From Myxococcota bacterium (GTDB taxonomy: Bacteria; Myxococcota; XYA12-FULL-58-9; JALHOP01): a stretch of 64,000 nucleotides of DNA. The notes beneath the pieces are model-generated. The model saw only the letters and a program-made list of their open reading frames with translations, had not been told where the DNA came from and did not search any database. Made by a program: the position numbers and the translations under genes. Location: assembly GCA_022842935.1 (NCBI GenBank), contig JALHOP010000006.1, forward strand, positions 186,001-250,000, read 5' to 3'. Below, one piece after another: positions 5,640-21,614 of the stretch. Every line of letters begins with the position of its first letter. The stretch's first letter is position 1.

Positions 5640-6215
5640 ATGCCAACCGACTTCGAAGCCAGCGAGCGTGAGGATCGCCTCGCGAGTGTGTCCGAGTCGG
5701 GAGTCTCGCTGGTCAGCAAGGAACGCCTCGCAGAGCTGAAAGCTCAGCTCGATGAAGAGCGGCAGCTGCTCGATCAAGAGCGCGCCATTCAGATCCGAAA
5801 TCGCGCGGCCTTCGACAGAGATCGTGCGAACCTCGACGAGAAGGCAGAGAGCCTCGCCATCGAAGCGGAGCGTCTGCGCGAGCGGAGTCGCGATCTCGAA
5901 CAGCGCGAGGCCGCCATCCGTCAGCGCGAGGCCAGCTTGTCTCGGCGGTCCGACGAGGGCACCAATCCCCGCCTCGATGAGGGCCAAGGCAACGACTGGA
6001 ATCTTCCAACGGTCGCGGCGTCAGTCGAAGAGGCGCGCGCTCTCGTGAGCAAAGCCGCGCAGTGGAAGCCGCAGGCCGAGCAACCGCAGCGCCGTCCCTC
6101 GGCCGTCCAAGACGGGCCGCTGCGGCAGATCTTGCTTGCCAATCCAGTCGCGACCTTTGCTTTCGGTTTCGCCGCCGCGACAATCGCCATGATCATCTTG
6201 TGGAGCTGGTTGTAG
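5640..6215 (+). CDS. Hypothetical coiled-coil protein with C-terminal membrane anchor
   Basis: About 191 residues from the ATG at 5640; a TTG at 5616 would add eight residues, and neither has a clear Shine-Dalgarno. Residues about 25 to 105 are strongly charged with a Leu/Arg/Glu heptad character (ERLAELKAQLDEERQLLDQ-like), which indicates a long coiled coil. A less ordered linker follows, then a single hydrophobic segment at the extreme C-terminus ending in ILWSWL. The topology suggests a tail-anchored inner-membrane protein. It ends nine bases before the GMC oxidoreductase and is probably co-transcribed. No family is recognised. Confidence 0.7.
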   Translation: MPTDFEASEREDRLASVSESGVSLVSKERLAELKAQLDEERQLLDQERAIQIRNRAAFDRDRANLDEKAESLAIEAERLRERSRDLEQREAAIRQREASLSRRSDEGTNPRLDEGQGNDWNLPTVAASVEEARALVSKAAQWKPQAEQPQRRPSAVQDGPLRQILLANPVATFAFGFAAATIAMIILWSWL

Positions 6216-6223
6216 GACGTCGC

Positions 6224-7768
6224 GTGAGCACCGCGTACGACTTCGTCATCATCGGCTCCGGGTTTGGAGGCAGCGTCAGCGCGCTGCGTCTGGCGGAGAA
6301 AGGTTACCGCGTGCTCGTGCTCGAGAAGGGAAGGCGCCTCGGCCCGGCGGACTTCCCTCGCAGCAACTGGCAGCTCAAGCGCTGGCTTTGGTTGCCAGCG
6401 CTGGGGTTTCGCGGCCTCTTCAAGATGACCTTCATGCGCCACGTCACGGTGGTCAGCGGTGTCGGCGTTGGCGGGGGCTCGCTCGTCTACGCCAACACGC
6501 TCCCGATCCCAGAGGACGACTTCTTTGCTGCCCCGCAATGGGCGACCCTCGCGCCCTGGAAGGAGGAGCTGGCGCCTCATTACCGCGAAGCGCGACGCAT
6601 GCTTGGCGCGGTGCAGAACCCGAACGTGACGCGTCCCGACGAAGTCCTGCGTGACCTTGCTCGCGAAAACGGACAACCACAAACATGGATGCCTTCGACG
6701 GTGGCTGTCTATTTCGGCGAGCCCGGACGTGAAGTGGAGGACCCCTATTTTGGAGGTGCCGGTCCTCGGCGTAGCGGCTGCACCGGCTGCGGTGCTTGCA
6801 TGCTCGGCTGCCGCTATGGCGCCAAGAACACCCTCGACAAAAACTACCTCTATTTCGCCGAGAAGCGTGGCGTAACCGTCGAAGCGGACAGCGAAGCCGT
6901 GTGGGTGAGGCCTAGAGATGGCGGTTACGAAGTCGAGGTGTTGTCCATCGAGGATGGTGGTCGGCGACGTGTGCAGACCGCGAACGTCGTGTTCGCGGGC
7001 GGCGTGCTCGGCACGGTCGAGCTTCTCTTGCGCTTGAAGGCAAGCCCAGATGGTCTGCCTGACTTGTCGGACCGGGTTGGCGACTTCGTGCGCACCAACT
7101 CCGAGACTCTCATTGGTGTTACGAGCAGTCGGCGCGACGTCGACCTGTCGCGCGGAATCGCCATCGGCTCTATCGTAGCGACCGACGCACACTCGCACCT
7201 CGAGCCCGTTCGCTATCCTGCGGGTTCCGGCTTCTTTCGCTTGCTCATGGCGCCGCATGTCGCCGGCGATACCGTCGGCACACGCTTACTGGGGCTCGCG
7301 CGCTCACTAGCGCGTCACCCCTTGAGGTTTCTGCGCGCCTTGCTCGTTCCTGACTGGGCGAAGTTCACGATGATCCTCCTCTACATGCGGAGCCTGGAAG
7401 GGCACTTACGCCTTAGGCTCGGCCGCTTCGGACTGACCACCGCAGTCCAAGACGGTGCGAGACCGCGCGCCTCGATCCCCGAAGCGTCCGCTCTGGCGGA
7501 GCGAGTAGCAATCAAGCTCGATGGCGCGGCCACGAGCCTCGCTAACGAGACGCTCTTCGATGTTCCAACCACGGCGCATATCCTCGGTGGTGCATGCATG
7601 GGGGAGAGCGCCGCCACGGGTGTCATCGACGCGCGCCATCGCGTCTTTGGCTATGATGGTTTGTTCGTCGTGGATGGCTCGGCAATATCGGCGAACCCGG
7701 GTGTGAATCCTTCGCTCACCATCACCGCGCTTGCCGAACGGGCAATGACGTTCATTCCTCCGAAATGA
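6224..7768 (+). CDS. GMC-type FAD-dependent oxidoreductase (cholesterol-oxidase ChoD-like)
   Basis: A 514-residue flavoprotein. The GTG at 6224 is chosen because the dinucleotide-binding motif (GSGFGG) then sits at residues 10 to 15; the upstream extension in this frame overlaps the preceding gene. A cysteine-rich block with GCTGCGAC and MLGCRYGAKN near residue 190 is typical of the ChoD-like branch of GMC oxidoreductases rather than of classical glucose or choline oxidases. The C-terminal motif around NPGVNPSLTITALAERA completes the FAD site. Its stop overlaps the dipeptidase start (ATGA), so the two are translationally coupled. The substrate may be a sterol or hydroxylated lipid, but this is inference. 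Confidence 0.82.
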   Translation: MSTAYDFVIIGSGFGGSVSALRLAEKGYRVLVLEKGRRLGPADFPRSNWQLKRWLWLPALGFRGLFKMTFMRHVTVVSGVGVGGGSLVYANTLPIPEDDFFAAPQWATLAPWKEELAPHYREARRMLGAVQNPNVTRPDEVLRDLARENGQPQTWMPSTVAVYFGEPGREVEDPYFGGAGPRRSGCTGCGACMLGCRYGAKNTLDKNYLYFAEKRGVTVEADSEAVWVRPRDGGYEVEVLSIEDGGRRRVQTANVVFAGGVLGTVELLLRLKASPDGLPDLSDRVGDFVRTNSETLIGVTSSRRDVDLSRGIAIGSIVATDAHSHLEPVRYPAGSGFFRLLMAPHVAGDTVGTRLLGLARSLARHPLRFLRALLVPDWAKFTMILLYMRSLEGHLRLRLGRFGLTTAVQDGARPRASIPEASALAERVAIKLDGAATSLANETLFDVPTTAHILGGACMGESAATGVIDARHRVFGYDGLFVVDGSAISANPGVNPSLTITALAERAMTFIPPK

Positions 7769-9560: not shown

Positions 9561-10160
9561 CTACAGACGCGCTGACTCTTCGTTGGTCCCCACCAAGCGC
9601 TTGTCGAGGCGCGCGATGAGCGCATCGACGCCGTCCCGCTTGATGATGCGACCGAACTGATTGCTGTAGTCGCGCACGAGCGACCCACCATCGATCGACA
9701 GGTCGACGATTTTCCAATCGTCGCCCTTTTTGGTCCAGGTGAAGACGACGCTGGTTTGGGTGTCATCTTTCGGCATCTTGGCGTCCACCGTCACAGTCGC
9801 TTTGGCGCCCTCGATCTTGGCTTCGCCCACCGTGTACTTGGTGTCTGCCAAAGCAGACCCAGCTTGTCGGTGCACCGTCTTTTTCAACAACGCCTCGAAG
9901 ACCTGGTGATACTTGGCCGTCTGCTGCGCGTTGAGCTGCGTCGCGTGGGTCTTGATGGCCTCGGTGGCGAACGATGCGTAGTCGAAGCTGTTGACGACGT
10001 CGGCCGGCAGCGCGCCTGCGTTGCTCTTGGCGGTCCACTGCTGGAGCAAGCGCGACGTCTGGGTCTTCAGCTCGCCAGAGCCCGCCGCGAAGGCCGGTGA
10101 CGCTGCGATGCCGAGGGCAATCAACAGGGGGGCGAGAAGGGTAGTGATGGGCTTACTCAT
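9561..10160 (-). CDS. MlaC/Ttg2D-type phospholipid-binding ABC transport protein
   Basis: A 199-residue periplasmic protein of the MlaC (toluene tolerance Ttg2D) family, which shuttles phospholipid between outer- and inner-membrane Mla complexes. The start ATG at 10160 is preceded by GGAGAG, and it opens a signal peptide (MSKPITTLLAPLLIAL, cleavage after AFA). The family core is visible in SFDYASFATEA, YHQVFEALLKKT and IDGGSLVRDYSNQFGRII. No mlaA, mlaD, mlaE or mlaF gene lies nearby, so this is an orphan copy in this window. It is divergent from the glycosyltransferase. Confidence 0.88.
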   Translation of the reverse strand: MSKPITTLLAPLLIALGIAASPAFAAGSGELKTQTSRLLQQWTAKSNAGALPADVVNSFDYASFATEAIKTHATQLNAQQTAKYHQVFEALLKKTVHRQAGSALADTKYTVGEAKIEGAKATVTVDAKMPKDDTQTSVVFTWTKKGDDWKIVDLSIDGGSLVRDYSNQFGRIIKRDGVDALIARLDKRLVGTNEESARL

Positions 10161-10527
10161 GACGTTCTCTCCAAGTCGCACTTTCTGCGCGAGCCTTCTG
10201 CCGGCTCGGCATGCATTCGTCTATTCAAGAAGGCTGCCAATTATCGGTCCCGTGCCCAGGGCGACCCAAAATATTGCGACAATCCGGCTACTTTCCCCGT
10301 TTCGTCGAGAATACAGGGGGTTATACGCGCGGGCCGTCGTAGCCTAAGCAAGTGTCCGCCAAGCCTTGCAGAGCGGACAGTTGTGACCGGCAAGCGGACA
10401 CGTGTGCTGTCCGCGGCATACCTGTCCGGTACTCAATGTGCGATCTAGGTCACGCTTGCGCCAGTATCGTCATGCACACGTCGCAAGAACTTCTCTTCAT
10501 CCGCATTTTCGCGGACAAGCCTGCCCT
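10161..10527. promoter_or_regulatory. Intergenic region with clustered GCGGACA/TGTCCGC half-sites
   Basis: This 367-bp gap between divergent mlaC and the glycosyltransferase has no convincing gene. Exact copies of TGTCCGC lie at 10353-10359 and 10408-10414, and exact copies of its complement GCGGACA at 10373-10379, 10394-10400 and 10511-10517; TGTCCGG is at 10423-10429. The first two form a 7-bp inverted repeat with a 13-nt gap, the next two a 7-bp inverted repeat with a 7-nt gap. The cluster could be a multi-site operator for the glycosyltransferase/pterin genes, or two leader hairpins. Confidence 0.5.
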
Positions 10528-11556
10528 ATGTTGTTCTTGACGGGTGCCATGGCGCGCGGGGACGTCGATGCCCGAACGTACGAGGAGCGGGCCACCGACG
10601 GTCTGGGGGCAGAAATACGCCGTTTCGCTCTCGGGAGCCCAGCCGAGAACGCCGTCACCCATACTCACCTGGCCGCGACTCTCGCAGCCTTACCAGAGGC
10701 GAGCTGTGTGCTTGCATCGAGCACCATCTTGCCGCTCGTGGGACCGGCGTTCCGCGCTCAGAGCCGCAGGCTGCGCATCGTCGTCCTTGCCCATCGCCCC
10801 AGTCATCGCGACCCCCGATTCGTTGGGATGGATGAACGCGAGCTTGCCAATGTCGACGCCGGGACCCTGCCATACGCCCGGCGGGTCGTTGCACCTAGCT
10901 TACATACGGCGATGAGCCTCGGAGCCATCGGTGTTCTACCCGATCAGCTCGCGGTCATCATGCCGGCAGCCGATCGGGCTCCCCTCGCCGAAGGGTCGCG
11001 CACGCGAGGCGAGGGCTTGTCGCTGGTTTGTGCCGCACCTCTCACCATCGCAGCGGGTCACGACGTGCTCATCGATGCGCTCGGGCCTCTCGCGGGCCGT
11101 GGCTGGCGACTGACGTGTGTTGCGCCCGAGGCCGACCCCGAGTGGCTCGCACAAATGCAGGCTAAAGCGGACCGTTTCGGGCTCGCGCGGCAAGTACACT
11201 GGAAGGTTGGCGCTAGCGCCAGCGACGTGAAGAGCGCCTATCATGCCGCCGATCTCGTCGTTTTGCCCGCCCGCTATGACCCCCACGGGACGGGGGTTCT
11301 CGAGGCGCTTGCCCGTGGTGTACCGGTGCTCGCGACGAGCGCGGGTGCGGCGGGACGGTTACTACCCGAGGGCGCCGGCGTTCTGGTGCGCGCCGGAGAA
11401 TCCTCCGAAATGACTCGCGCACTCGCCGTAGTCTGCGACAATGACGAAGTGCTGGCACGACTCACGCAGGGAGCCGAGCGGGCACGCGCCGAGGTTCGGG
11501 TTTGGAGTCGGGTCGCGGCGGAACTGAAGCGTGAGGTCGACGTCGCATGCCGGTGA
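10528..11556 (+). CDS. GT4-family glycosyltransferase
   Basis: About 342 residues from the ATG at 10528; the frame upstream of it lies in the repeat-bearing intergenic region and does not look coding. The C-terminal half has the GT4 nucleotide-sugar site: ADLVVLPARYDPHGTGVLEAL near residue 265, where the usual E-x7-E pair appears as D-x7-E, followed by ARGVPVLATSAG. The gene overlaps the downstream pterin-synthase gene by 10 bp, so the two are very likely translated together. GT4-like enzymes glucosylate pterins in cyanobacteria, which makes a pterin acceptor worth considering; that is inference, not shown by the sequence. Confidence 0.78.
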   Translation: MLFLTGAMARGDVDARTYEERATDGLGAEIRRFALGSPAENAVTHTHLAATLAALPEASCVLASSTILPLVGPAFRAQSRRLRIVVLAHRPSHRDPRFVGMDERELANVDAGTLPYARRVVAPSLHTAMSLGAIGVLPDQLAVIMPAADRAPLAEGSRTRGEGLSLVCAAPLTIAAGHDVLIDALGPLAGRGWRLTCVAPEADPEWLAQMQAKADRFGLARQVHWKVGASASDVKSAYHAADLVVLPARYDPHGTGVLEALARGVPVLATSAGAAGRLLPEGAGVLVRAGESSEMTRALAVVCDNDEVLARLTQGAERARAEVRVWSRVAAELKREVDVACR

Positions 11557-12389
11557 CCCTATTTGTCGAAAACGTCACCGTGCTCGACTACGCCTATTTG
11601 CGCCCCGATGTGCGCTTCGCCGGTGACAGCTTGATCCTAACCATCGAGTTGCGCGGTGACCTCGACCAGCGGGGGTTCATCGTCGACTTCGGCAAGCTCA
11701 AGCCGATGGTCAAGCACTTCGTCGACAGCGAGCTCGATCACCGGCTACTCCTCCCCTCCCGCGATCGCGAGCTCATTGTCGAAGAGATCGGCGGCCGCGT
11801 CATTGTCCGCTATGGCAACCTAACCTACGAGGCTCCCCCAACCGGAGTCGCGACGCTCGACGCGATTGCGATTACTCACGACACCATCTCACGACGCATC
11901 GAGCAGCTGGTCGCGCCGCATCTGCCGTCGAACGTGAGCGCGTTGCGCTGCCACCTGGCCCGGGACGCGCGAGCCGAGCAACAGGCAAGCTTTGCCTACA
12001 CACACGGGCTGCGTCACCACGACGGCAACTGCCAGCGGCTTCTGCACGGCCACCGCGGAGTTTTCGTGGTGATCTGGGACGGGATTCGTGACCCGGAGCT
12101 CGAGGCTATGCTGGTGACGCGCTTCGACGGCGCGCATTTCGCCTCTGCACGTGACGTCAGCGGTGACGCGGTCGCTTATCGCGCCGCCCAGGGCGACTTT
12201 ACTGCGCTTTTGCCCGGCGGGCGCATCGTGCCGCTGTCGGTCGAGCCCACTATCGAGAACATCGCCCACTTTGCCTTCGACGAGCTCGTACGTGCGAACA
12301 ACCTCGATGGTCGTCGGCTGATGGTGCGGGCCTACGAAGGCCCCAACAAAGGCGCCATGTTTTCGCTTCCGTCCGCTACGGCGGAGTAA
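11547..12389 (+). CDS. Two-module 6-pyruvoyl-tetrahydropterin synthase / QueD-like protein
   Basis: A 280-residue protein, about twice the length of QueD, made of two T-fold modules. The N-terminal module retains DFGKLK and DHRLLLP but lacks the zinc histidines. The C-terminal module has the zinc and catalytic motif HDGNCQRLLHGHRG near residues 160 to 173 and the VEPTIENIAHF motif that binds the pterin. The active-site motifs are thus shared between the halves. QueD and PTPS enzymes turn dihydroneopterin triphosphate into carboxy- or pyruvoyl-tetrahydropterin. No other queuosine gene is nearby. The start overlaps the glycosyltransferase by 10 bp, and the end overlaps cytidine deaminase by 14 bp. 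Confidence 0.82.
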   Translation: MPVTLFVENVTVLDYAYLRPDVRFAGDSLILTIELRGDLDQRGFIVDFGKLKPMVKHFVDSELDHRLLLPSRDRELIVEEIGGRVIVRYGNLTYEAPPTGVATLDAIAITHDTISRRIEQLVAPHLPSNVSALRCHLARDARAEQQASFAYTHGLRHHDGNCQRLLHGHRGVFVVIWDGIRDPELEAMLVTRFDGAHFASARDVSGDAVAYRAAQGDFTALLPGGRIVPLSVEPTIENIAHFAFDELVRANNLDGRRLMVRAYEGPNKGAMFSLPSATAE

Positions 12390-20261: not shown

Positions 20262-21614
20262 ATGGAGTGGACTCCCGATAGCTGGGCCGCGAAAGCGGCA
20301 ACCACCCTCTATCCCGACACCGAGGCACTGGCAGTCGCCAAGGCTAAGTTGGCAAGCCTTCCGCCTCTCGTCACCTCTTGGGAGGTCGAACGATTGCGCG
20401 AGCTCATCGCCGAGGCCCAGGACGGCAAACGCTTGTGGCTCCAGGGCGGCGACTGCGCCGAGTCACTCGTCGATTGTACGAGCGACATCGTCACCAGCAA
20501 GCTGAAGATCCTGCTGCAGATGTCGCTGGTGTTGCTCGATGCCACCAAGAAGCCGGTGATCCGCGTTGGCAGACTCGCTGGGCAATACGCCAAACCGCGG
20601 AGCAATCCCTTCGAGACCGTGAAAGGCAGCGACGGAACCCCCGTGGAGTTGCACAGCTACCAAGGCGACCTCGTGAACCGGCACGAAGCCAATGCGGCGG
20701 CACGCAGGCCCGACCCGATGCGCTTGGTCGAAGGCTATCACCACGCCGCCATGACCTTGAACTTCGTGCGCTCCCTCGTGCACGGCGGATTCGCCGATCC
20801 TCACCACCCCGAGAATTGGGAGCTCGGTGATCGCGCGCAAGAGCTCGCTACCGAGCTGCGCAACGCGTACGGTCGAGCGCGCGAGAGCCTGCGCCGCGTC
20901 CTCGACCTCGCGGCGGCTCTCGACGTCCGCGATGCCGCACTGACAGGCGTCGAGTTCTTCATCAGTCACGAGGGGCTGAACCTTCACTACGAGGAGGCGC
21001 AGACCCGGCGCGTCCCGCGACGTCAGGGCTACTACGACCTGACCACCCACTTCCCTTGGATAGGCGAGCGTACGCGCGCCCTCGATGGTCCTCACATCGA
21101 GTACTTCCGCGGCATCGTGAACCCGGTCGGCGTGAAGCTGGGACCGAAGGCAACCGCTGACGAGGTGCTGCGTCTCATCGAGGTGCTCAACCCGTCGAAT
21201 GCCGCCGGCAAGATCGTGCTTATTGCTCGCATCGGCGCGTCGAAGGTGCGTGAGGTTCTGCCCGGTTGGGTACGGGCCATCGAGCATGCCAAGAAGCGCG
21301 TGCTCTGGGTTTGCGACCCAATGCACGCGAATACCCGAGGCACAGCGGCTGGAATCAAGACGCGCGACGTTGGCGATGTCGTCAGCGAGGTTTCCGCGTC
21401 GATCGCGGTCCATCGCGAGCTCGGCTCTGTATTCGGCGGCGTACACGTCGAGCTTACTGGCGAAAACGTGACCGAGTGTGTCGGCGGCGCCATGGGACTC
21501 GCGGACGACGACCTTACCCGCAACTACGCCACATTGTGCGACCCTCGGTTGAACTACGCCCAGTCCATCGAGCTTGCAGTCTCCATGGCGCGTGCGCTAA
21601 CCGCGGCGGAATGA
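20262..21614 (+). CDS. 3-deoxy-7-phosphoheptulonate (DAHP) synthase, class II
   Basis: A 450-residue plant-type class II DAHP synthase, which joins phosphoenolpyruvate and erythrose 4-phosphate in the first step of aromatic amino acid synthesis. Signatures include WLQGGDCAES near residue 63, the KPVIRVGRLAGQYAKPRS block near residue 100, HEGLNLHYEEAQTR near residue 240 and CDPMHANT near residue 350. Length fits the bacterial members. Its stop overlaps the next ATG by four bases, coupling it to an M20 peptidase with no obvious role in the pathway. Confidence 0.93.
   Translation: MEWTPDSWAAKAATTLYPDTEALAVAKAKLASLPPLVTSWEVERLRELIAEAQDGKRLWLQGGDCAESLVDCTSDIVTSKLKILLQMSLVLLDATKKPVIRVGRLAGQYAKPRSNPFETVKGSDGTPVELHSYQGDLVNRHEANAAARRPDPMRLVEGYHHAAMTLNFVRSLVHGGFADPHHPENWELGDRAQELATELRNAYGRARESLRRVLDLAAALDVRDAALTGVEFFISHEGLNLHYEEAQTRRVPRRQGYYDLTTHFPWIGERTRALDGPHIEYFRGIVNPVGVKLGPKATADEVLRLIEVLNPSNAAGKIVLIARIGASKVREVLPGWVRAIEHAKKRVLWVCDPMHANTRGTAAGIKTRDVGDVVSEVSASIAVHRELGSVFGGVHVELTGENVTECVGGAMGLADDDLTRNYATLCDPRLNYAQSIELAVSMARALTAAE

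Follow-up and report, generated by a model that had tools for sequence, protein, structure and literature searches.

The locus analyzed here lies within a 64-kb stretch of DNA (the window) and consists of two overlapping genes. The upstream gene (10528-11556, + strand) encodes a GT4-family glycosyltransferase of 342 aa that is probably eroded, as judged from Pfam (PF00534/PF13692), GC3, tree position and motif losses. The downstream gene (11547-12389, +) encodes a two-module PTPS of 280 aa, a candidate for a bimodular QueD. Both frames share 10 bp (11547-11556, +). The longest mechanical ORF of the glycosyltransferase spans 10402-11556 (+). GC3 was 0.45 in 10402-10527 as compared to 0.70 in 10528-11556, and the GT4 profile match begins downstream of 10528. 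Because of this GC3 drop and the position of the profile match, the ATG at 10528 was preferred as start. In Pfam the first protein matched Glycos_transf_1 with 63 bits and the second matched PTPS with 68 bits over two stretches (cut-off 22.4), which places it in PF01242/COG0720. Sequence, GC3 and Pfam together confirmed that both ORFs are present and overlap as the earlier note had given it, and they favour its start.

The window ORFs scanned with Pfam (about 2.5-21.6 kb and one at 56 kb) contained no queuosine or folate genes, as had been claimed before. Neither Zur nor COG0523 nor FolE2 was found among the scanned neighbours of the gene pair, and Rfam gave no riboswitch match at the locus. 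Further ORFs of the window encode an MlaC-like protein divergent to the GT4 gene (9561-10181; PF05494, 81 bits) with weak likeness to HpnM, a GMC oxidoreductase (6167-7768) that scored 584 bits with the cholesterol oxidase model NF058674 and is under its cut-off of 850, and a class-II DAHP synthase (20262-21614; PF01474, 549 bits).

The structural composition of the 280-aa protein was compared in an alignment of 31 two-module members, from which L083 was left out due to an in-frame stop. Module 1 (residues 1-125; 11547-11921, +) has a PTPS fold and keeps DFxxxK and DH, and it lacks HGH. Here, DFGKLK (residues 47-52; 11685-11702, +) and DHR (residues 64-66; 11736-11744, +) were located, with D47, F48, K52, D64 and H65 invariant in all 31 rows. 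Module 2 (residues 126-280; 11922-12386, +), again of PTPS fold, keeps the His, Cys, HGH and Glu positions. These are His153 as first metal-type ligand (12003-12005, +), Cys162 followed after four residues by HGH (167-169; 12030-12053, +), where canonical QueD has a spacing of three, PTIEN (residues 234-238; 12246-12260, +) and Glu264 (12336-12338, +), at the position of the pterin-anchoring glutamate known from QueD/PTPS biochemistry. H153, H158, C162, H167, G168, H169, E237 and E264 were invariant in 31 of 31 members. The losses in the tandem domains are complementary in every aligned homologue: DFxxxK and DH are restricted to module 1, and the metal-type histidines, Cys and Glu to module 2. 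The motif split described in the earlier note was exact to the residue.

Compared to canonical QueD, module 1 has the HGH position replaced (AGD in the window protein) with DF and DH kept (hhalign probability 93). Module 2 keeps Cys and HGH with one additional residue between them, in a weak sequence alignment (hhalign probability 9). The predicted structure of the whole protein reached a pLDDT of 93.2 and a pTM of 0.89. Its module 1 matched PTPS structures with Z 12.9 (2.4 A, 140 residues) and E. coli QueD with Z 10.9. Module 2 modelled alone (pLDDT 88.4) matched PTPS with Z 11.6 (2.8 A, 128 residues) and QueD with Z 9.2; proteasome-type rows followed at Z about 4 and below. Based on these structure matches and the motif split, both halves are PTPS domains among which the residues of one site are divided. 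We infer that the two modules make one composite active site. Single-module PTPS subunits build their active sites at subunit interfaces.

The cysteine spacing of the window protein, C-x4-HGH, fits none of the three PTPS signatures given in PMC5041015. Neither the PTPS-I (QueD) signature CxxxHGH nor the PTPS-II (biopterin) signature CxxxxxHGH is present, and at the position of the Glu in the PTPS-III (folate) signature ExxHGH the protein carries an Arg (residue 164). However, the PTPS-I residue set as such, i.e. the catalytic Cys, an Asp-His pair, the Glu and three histidines for the metal at any place in the sequence, was complete in 31 of 31 aligned rows. With the QueD equivalog model TIGR03367 the window protein scored 52.6 bits, under the cut-off of 89.25, as did three other two-module members (34.8 to 60.7 bits). 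In comparison with E. coli QueD/PTPS-I (PDB 4ntk), the fold of both modules and the genomic pathway context are alike, and Cys, HGH, DF, DH and Glu each occur once per protein. The window protein differs in the fusion of two modules, the split site, the one-residue-longer Cys-HGH spacing and the score below the TIGR03367 cut-off.

Only one PTPS-family locus was found in the window genome (6.28 Mb, 97% complete). QueC (244 bits), QueA (413 bits), Tgt (494 bits) and QueE (TIGR04349, 211 bits on a 166-aa piece) are encoded on other contigs. As the sole PTPS found, in a genome with QueC, QueE, QueA and Tgt elsewhere, the two-module protein is read as the QueD of this genome, and it is probably the only PTPS of the bacterium. 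All seven other genomes of the same order carried a single-module PTPS. For each of them the PTPS printed reads C-x3-HGH, as QueD does; five of these proteins have about 120 aa and two have 177-202 aa. The motif is missing from another PTPS of the order (L017). Most simply, the two-module protein would stand in for QueD in the window genome, although, the assembly being 97% complete, a canonical queD could sit in a gap.

Two-module relatives of the window protein were present in 600 plasmid records, 561 of them Klebsiella, and in 51 phage records (62 when a phage member served as query). An alignment-based scan of gammaproteobacterial genomes confirmed 528 stretches; the best 80 were kept and all of these were gammaproteobacterial by title. 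A single-protein scan of genome contigs gave no match. In a class-level search the two-module form was detected in 21 of 369 gammaproteobacterial genomes. Within the window's phylum 13 of 195 genomes matched at E 1e-3; twelve of these matches were fragments of 20-25 bits, and only the window genome had the full length. For 37 of the best 80 loci (from 528) the genome was tested for further PTPS: the two-module form was the only one in 31 and was accompanied by another in six. Three loci on viral contigs grouped with Vibrio host genes and were left out of the phage evidence. In the PTPS tree a long branch leads to the window protein, which does not group within the 55 gammaproteobacterial rows; this placement shows neither transfer nor deep descent. 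L174 (G551), a gammaproteobacterial two-module PTPS split into two frames (225 and 86 aa), perhaps by a frameshift or sequencing error, was left out of this tree. A neighbour family of about 277 aa occurred near the two-module gene in 30 of 84 loci (L022, L025, L034, L051 and others), mostly directly downstream with slight overlap; its members look secreted. No description of the two-module architecture was found in the open-licence literature, which is weak evidence of absence.

Three phages (6E35.1a, 1.081.O and nt-1) have the two-module gene in a group with QueC, a GTP cyclohydrolase and a Tgt/DpdA-like gene. Of these, Vibrio phage nt-1 has it adjoining GTP cyclohydrolase (folE), DpdA2 (YP_008125322) and QueC. 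A fourth phage stretch, D479, had no que cassette within 6 kb and a GTP cyclohydrolase at its edge. Hutinet et al. reported DpdA2, under the same accession, from phage nt-1, and according to the passages of PMC6884629 on this phage its DNA carries dPreQ0, dADG and dG+. The same passages state that the hosts of DpdA2 phages possess a Q pathway of their own, so that the modified nt-1 DNA is no proof of activity of the phage PTPS. The window protein shares with the nt-1/KVP40-like QueD (Hutinet et al. 2019, PMC6884629) the two-module architecture, with full-length tblastn matches between the families. However, identity is only about 26%, the phage setting is DNA modification and not tRNA, and the passages on nt-1 make no mention of two modules.

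Another kind of surroundings was found on a Klebsiella plasmid, where the two-module gene lies with FolE2, DksA, a transcriptional repressor, GTP-binding proteins including ZigA, HemB and dihydroorotase. The annotation of the two-module PTPS in Klebsiella plasmids varies: several records call it isocitrate dehydrogenase, and others hypothetical protein. A Zur cluster of this type is the setting in which Haas et al. (PMC2770081) place a QueD paralogue that conserves the zinc residues, with the pLVPK gene cluster marked; PMC9508795 is a further reference on this type of cluster and paralogue.

The GT4 side of the pair gave a different picture. The earlier note mentioned long PTPS proteins beside glycosyltransferases in gammaproteobacteria. 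For the long form this did not hold: relatives of the window GT4 were absent from 85 two-module loci by tblastn, from 84 such loci by profile, and from a set of 20. The sets of 84 and 20 partly overlap (e.g. G195 = L018), and several loci were shorter than the wanted flank. By these three sets, the long PTPS has no conserved linkage to this GT4. What did hold is a linkage to short, single-module PTPS. Several of the best plasmid matches of the window GT4 fall into a recurrent cluster of a Zn-binding dehydrogenase, a short PTPS, a GT4, a methyltransferase, a RibD-family protein, RibA and a CDP-alcohol phosphatidyltransferase. This content was compiled from four plasmid contexts in alpha- and gammaproteobacteria, and not every gene occurred in each. 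Haloarcula had a similar arrangement without annotated PTPS. Two GT4 matches were without annotated PTPS, and a Streptomyces match was without PTPS as well.

With a profile of these GT4s, 37 loci were collected. PTPS adjoined GT4 in 18; the others comprised 17 generic GT4s and two cut or unclear loci. Within the stretch, a cluster-type dehydrogenase accompanied 17 of the 18 PTPS-adjacent loci and a RibD-type gene 14. One of the 18 is in G001, which shares its order with the window genome, and two more are in the phylum. The cluster loci (L122, L123, L125, L126, L128, L206-L220, L223-L225) come from proteobacteria, from Myxococcota-type genomes of the window's phylum and from a haloarchaeon; a RibD-family reductase belongs to their gene kinds, and RibA and the CDP-alcohol phosphatidyltransferase are often present. 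The open-licence literature held no description of this cluster that we could find, again weak evidence of absence. The gene-neighbourhood check proposed in the earlier note had a mixed outcome: PTPS-GT4 linkage does recur, but the partner is a single-module, Cys-less PTPS and not the 280-aa type. The cluster PTPS measures about 130 aa, has no catalytic Cys, reads DIG for DFG and, in its main group, HGA for HGH; it is 23-25% identical to the window protein. In G503, G510 and G596 a two-module PTPS and a cluster GT4 were both present and unlinked. Because the cluster PTPS differs and the two components are unlinked elsewhere, the window pair is read as joining a bimodular QueD to a worn member of another system.

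When the window GT4 served as single query (1e-15), no relative came up in any of the 192 other genomes among the 193 of the phylum; the profile did better. The window GT4 scored 152 bits with this profile. Scores of clade members start at 150 and those of the best generic GT4s reach 160, an overlap that makes the score alone not decisive. In a tree of 45 GT4s it fell among the PTPS-adjacent GT4s with support of 99/95 on a long branch; L222 (cut at a contig start) was left out and L217, fused to a methyltransferase, was trimmed to 360 aa. A tree joining it to 16 generic GT4s was rejected (p-AU 0.0036), the group having been named after the tree was seen. The branches of both window proteins are long, at 2.0 and 2.7 changes per column, so their placement may be pulled.

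In the alignment the window GT4 retained His89 (10792-10794, +), with the VHHP motif reading AHRP. Ala175-Ala176 (11050-11055, +) stand where relatives mostly have Arg-Lys, Asp251 (11278-11280, +) replaces the first Glu of the EX7E motif, and the SGGY loop is missing. The Lys of RK and the first Glu of EX7E, which all 26 clade members and all 17 generic GT4s keep, are both lost. We take this Lys to be the phosphate-binding one, which together with the EX7E Glu pair marks an active GT4; by this measure the window protein does not qualify as one. Erosion of the GT4 was deduced from the loss of the SGGY loop, RK and the first EX7E Glu, and by these motifs its sugar-donor binding would be impaired. 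The intact ORF with coding-like composition, which a mere relic would not need, speaks against plain decay. While the window GT4 lies inside the clade of PTPS-adjacent cluster GT4s, it differs from them in its lost catalytic-type residues, its different partner PTPS and the absence of the remaining cluster genes from the window. A defence-system reading, suggested by a match to Pfam GT4-conflict (27 bits), was rejected: PADLOC finds nothing in the pair, and a cluster GT4 matches GT4-conflict as well.

We consider it rather probable, as one joint reading, that the pair comprises a bimodular QueD serving queuosine synthesis and, overlapping it, a degenerate GT4 carried along as a passenger. According to this proposal the 280-aa protein would be a bimodular 6-carboxytetrahydropterin synthase supplying the tetrahydropterin precursor of queuosine, with CPH4 as its inferred product. 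Two PTPS domains would have been fused in tandem and half of the active site lost from each: DFxxxK and the catalytic Asp-His pair would come from module 1, and the metal ligands, the Cys nucleophile and the Glu that binds the pterin from module 2. The overlapping GT4 would belong to the Zn-dehydrogenase/PTPS/GT4 cluster family as a diverged member whose catalysis is probably impaired. The overlap itself would be a derived rearrangement and would not require a common product.

The main alternative is the pterin glycoside proposed in the earlier note. On this view the PTPS would form a 6-substituted tetrahydropterin and the GT4 would attach a sugar to it, the type of reaction known from the pteridine glycosyltransferases of cyanobacteria and Chlorobium. 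PMC5683033 reports glycosylated pterins together with a pteridine glycosyltransferase, and the overlapping frames, the PTPS-GT4 adjacency in 18 of 37 loci and on alpha- and gammaproteobacterial plasmids, and the Zn-dehydrogenase and RibD/RibA-type genes that accompany this GT4 family would all suit such a pathway. However, the PTPS of that cluster is of a different, Cys-less type, the 64-kb window has no match to the cluster-type dehydrogenase, RibD, RibA or CDP-alcohol transferase, and among the loci examined the GT4 stands beside no other two-module PTPS. Elsewhere the two-module form, without GT4, occurs in the context of preQ0 synthesis or of a zinc-limitation-type island. Together with a queuosine pathway in which it is the sole QueD candidate found, and with a GT4 that lacks RK, the first EX7E Glu and SGGY, this leaves a pterin glycoside weak for the window genome and, in our estimate, unlikely. 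It may be the product of the wider cluster. A variant keeps the two genes as a working unit, with a re-purposed GT4 of non-standard donor site glycosylating the product of the bimodular QueD or queuosine itself. Vertebrate queuosine glycosyltransferases include a GT4-type enzyme. Such a unit, which would yield a bacterial glycosylated pterin or glycosylated queuosine, seems to us very unlikely.

Alternatively, the protein could be a QueD2-type backup under scarce zinc and not the housekeeping QueD. The Klebsiella plasmid cluster, with its repressor, ZigA-type and further GTP-binding proteins, FolE2, DksA, HemB and dihydroorotase, holds a protein of the same architecture, and a Zur-regulated QueD paralogue is described in PMC2770081, where the pLVPK gene cluster is marked. 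The chain of the solved Acinetobacter QueD2 (7v0f) has about 200 residues. No zinc context was found among the scanned neighbours of the window pair. A backup is difficult to reconcile with the sole PTPS found in the genome, which keeps its metal-type histidines, and we regard this reading as distinctly unlikely. The functional diversity of COG0720 members, as outlined in PMC5041015, would allow for a folate or biopterin enzyme (PTPS-III or PTPS-II) in place of QueD. Against this stand the two missing signatures, ExxHGH and CxxxxxHGH, and the phage context of the two-module form, which is preQ0 synthesis; it is the least probable of the readings weighed here. We retain the bimodular QueD with a passenger GT4 as the most probable reading.

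A comparable organisation is found in the bimodular QueF, a tandem T-fold enzyme of the queuosine pathway with motifs divided between modules, although its reaction and family are different. The GT4 side of the locus points to a widespread PTPS-GT4 cluster, and this cluster is probably more novel than the gene pair of the window. The curated QueD model scores the two-module form under its cut-off, and in some annotations this form goes as hypothetical or even as isocitrate dehydrogenase. It would offer a clean test of how a catalytic site is divided between duplicated T-fold subunits. If the proposed reading is true, many marine gammaproteobacteria as well as KVP40-type phages and Klebsiella plasmids would rely on a split-site architecture for their QueD step.
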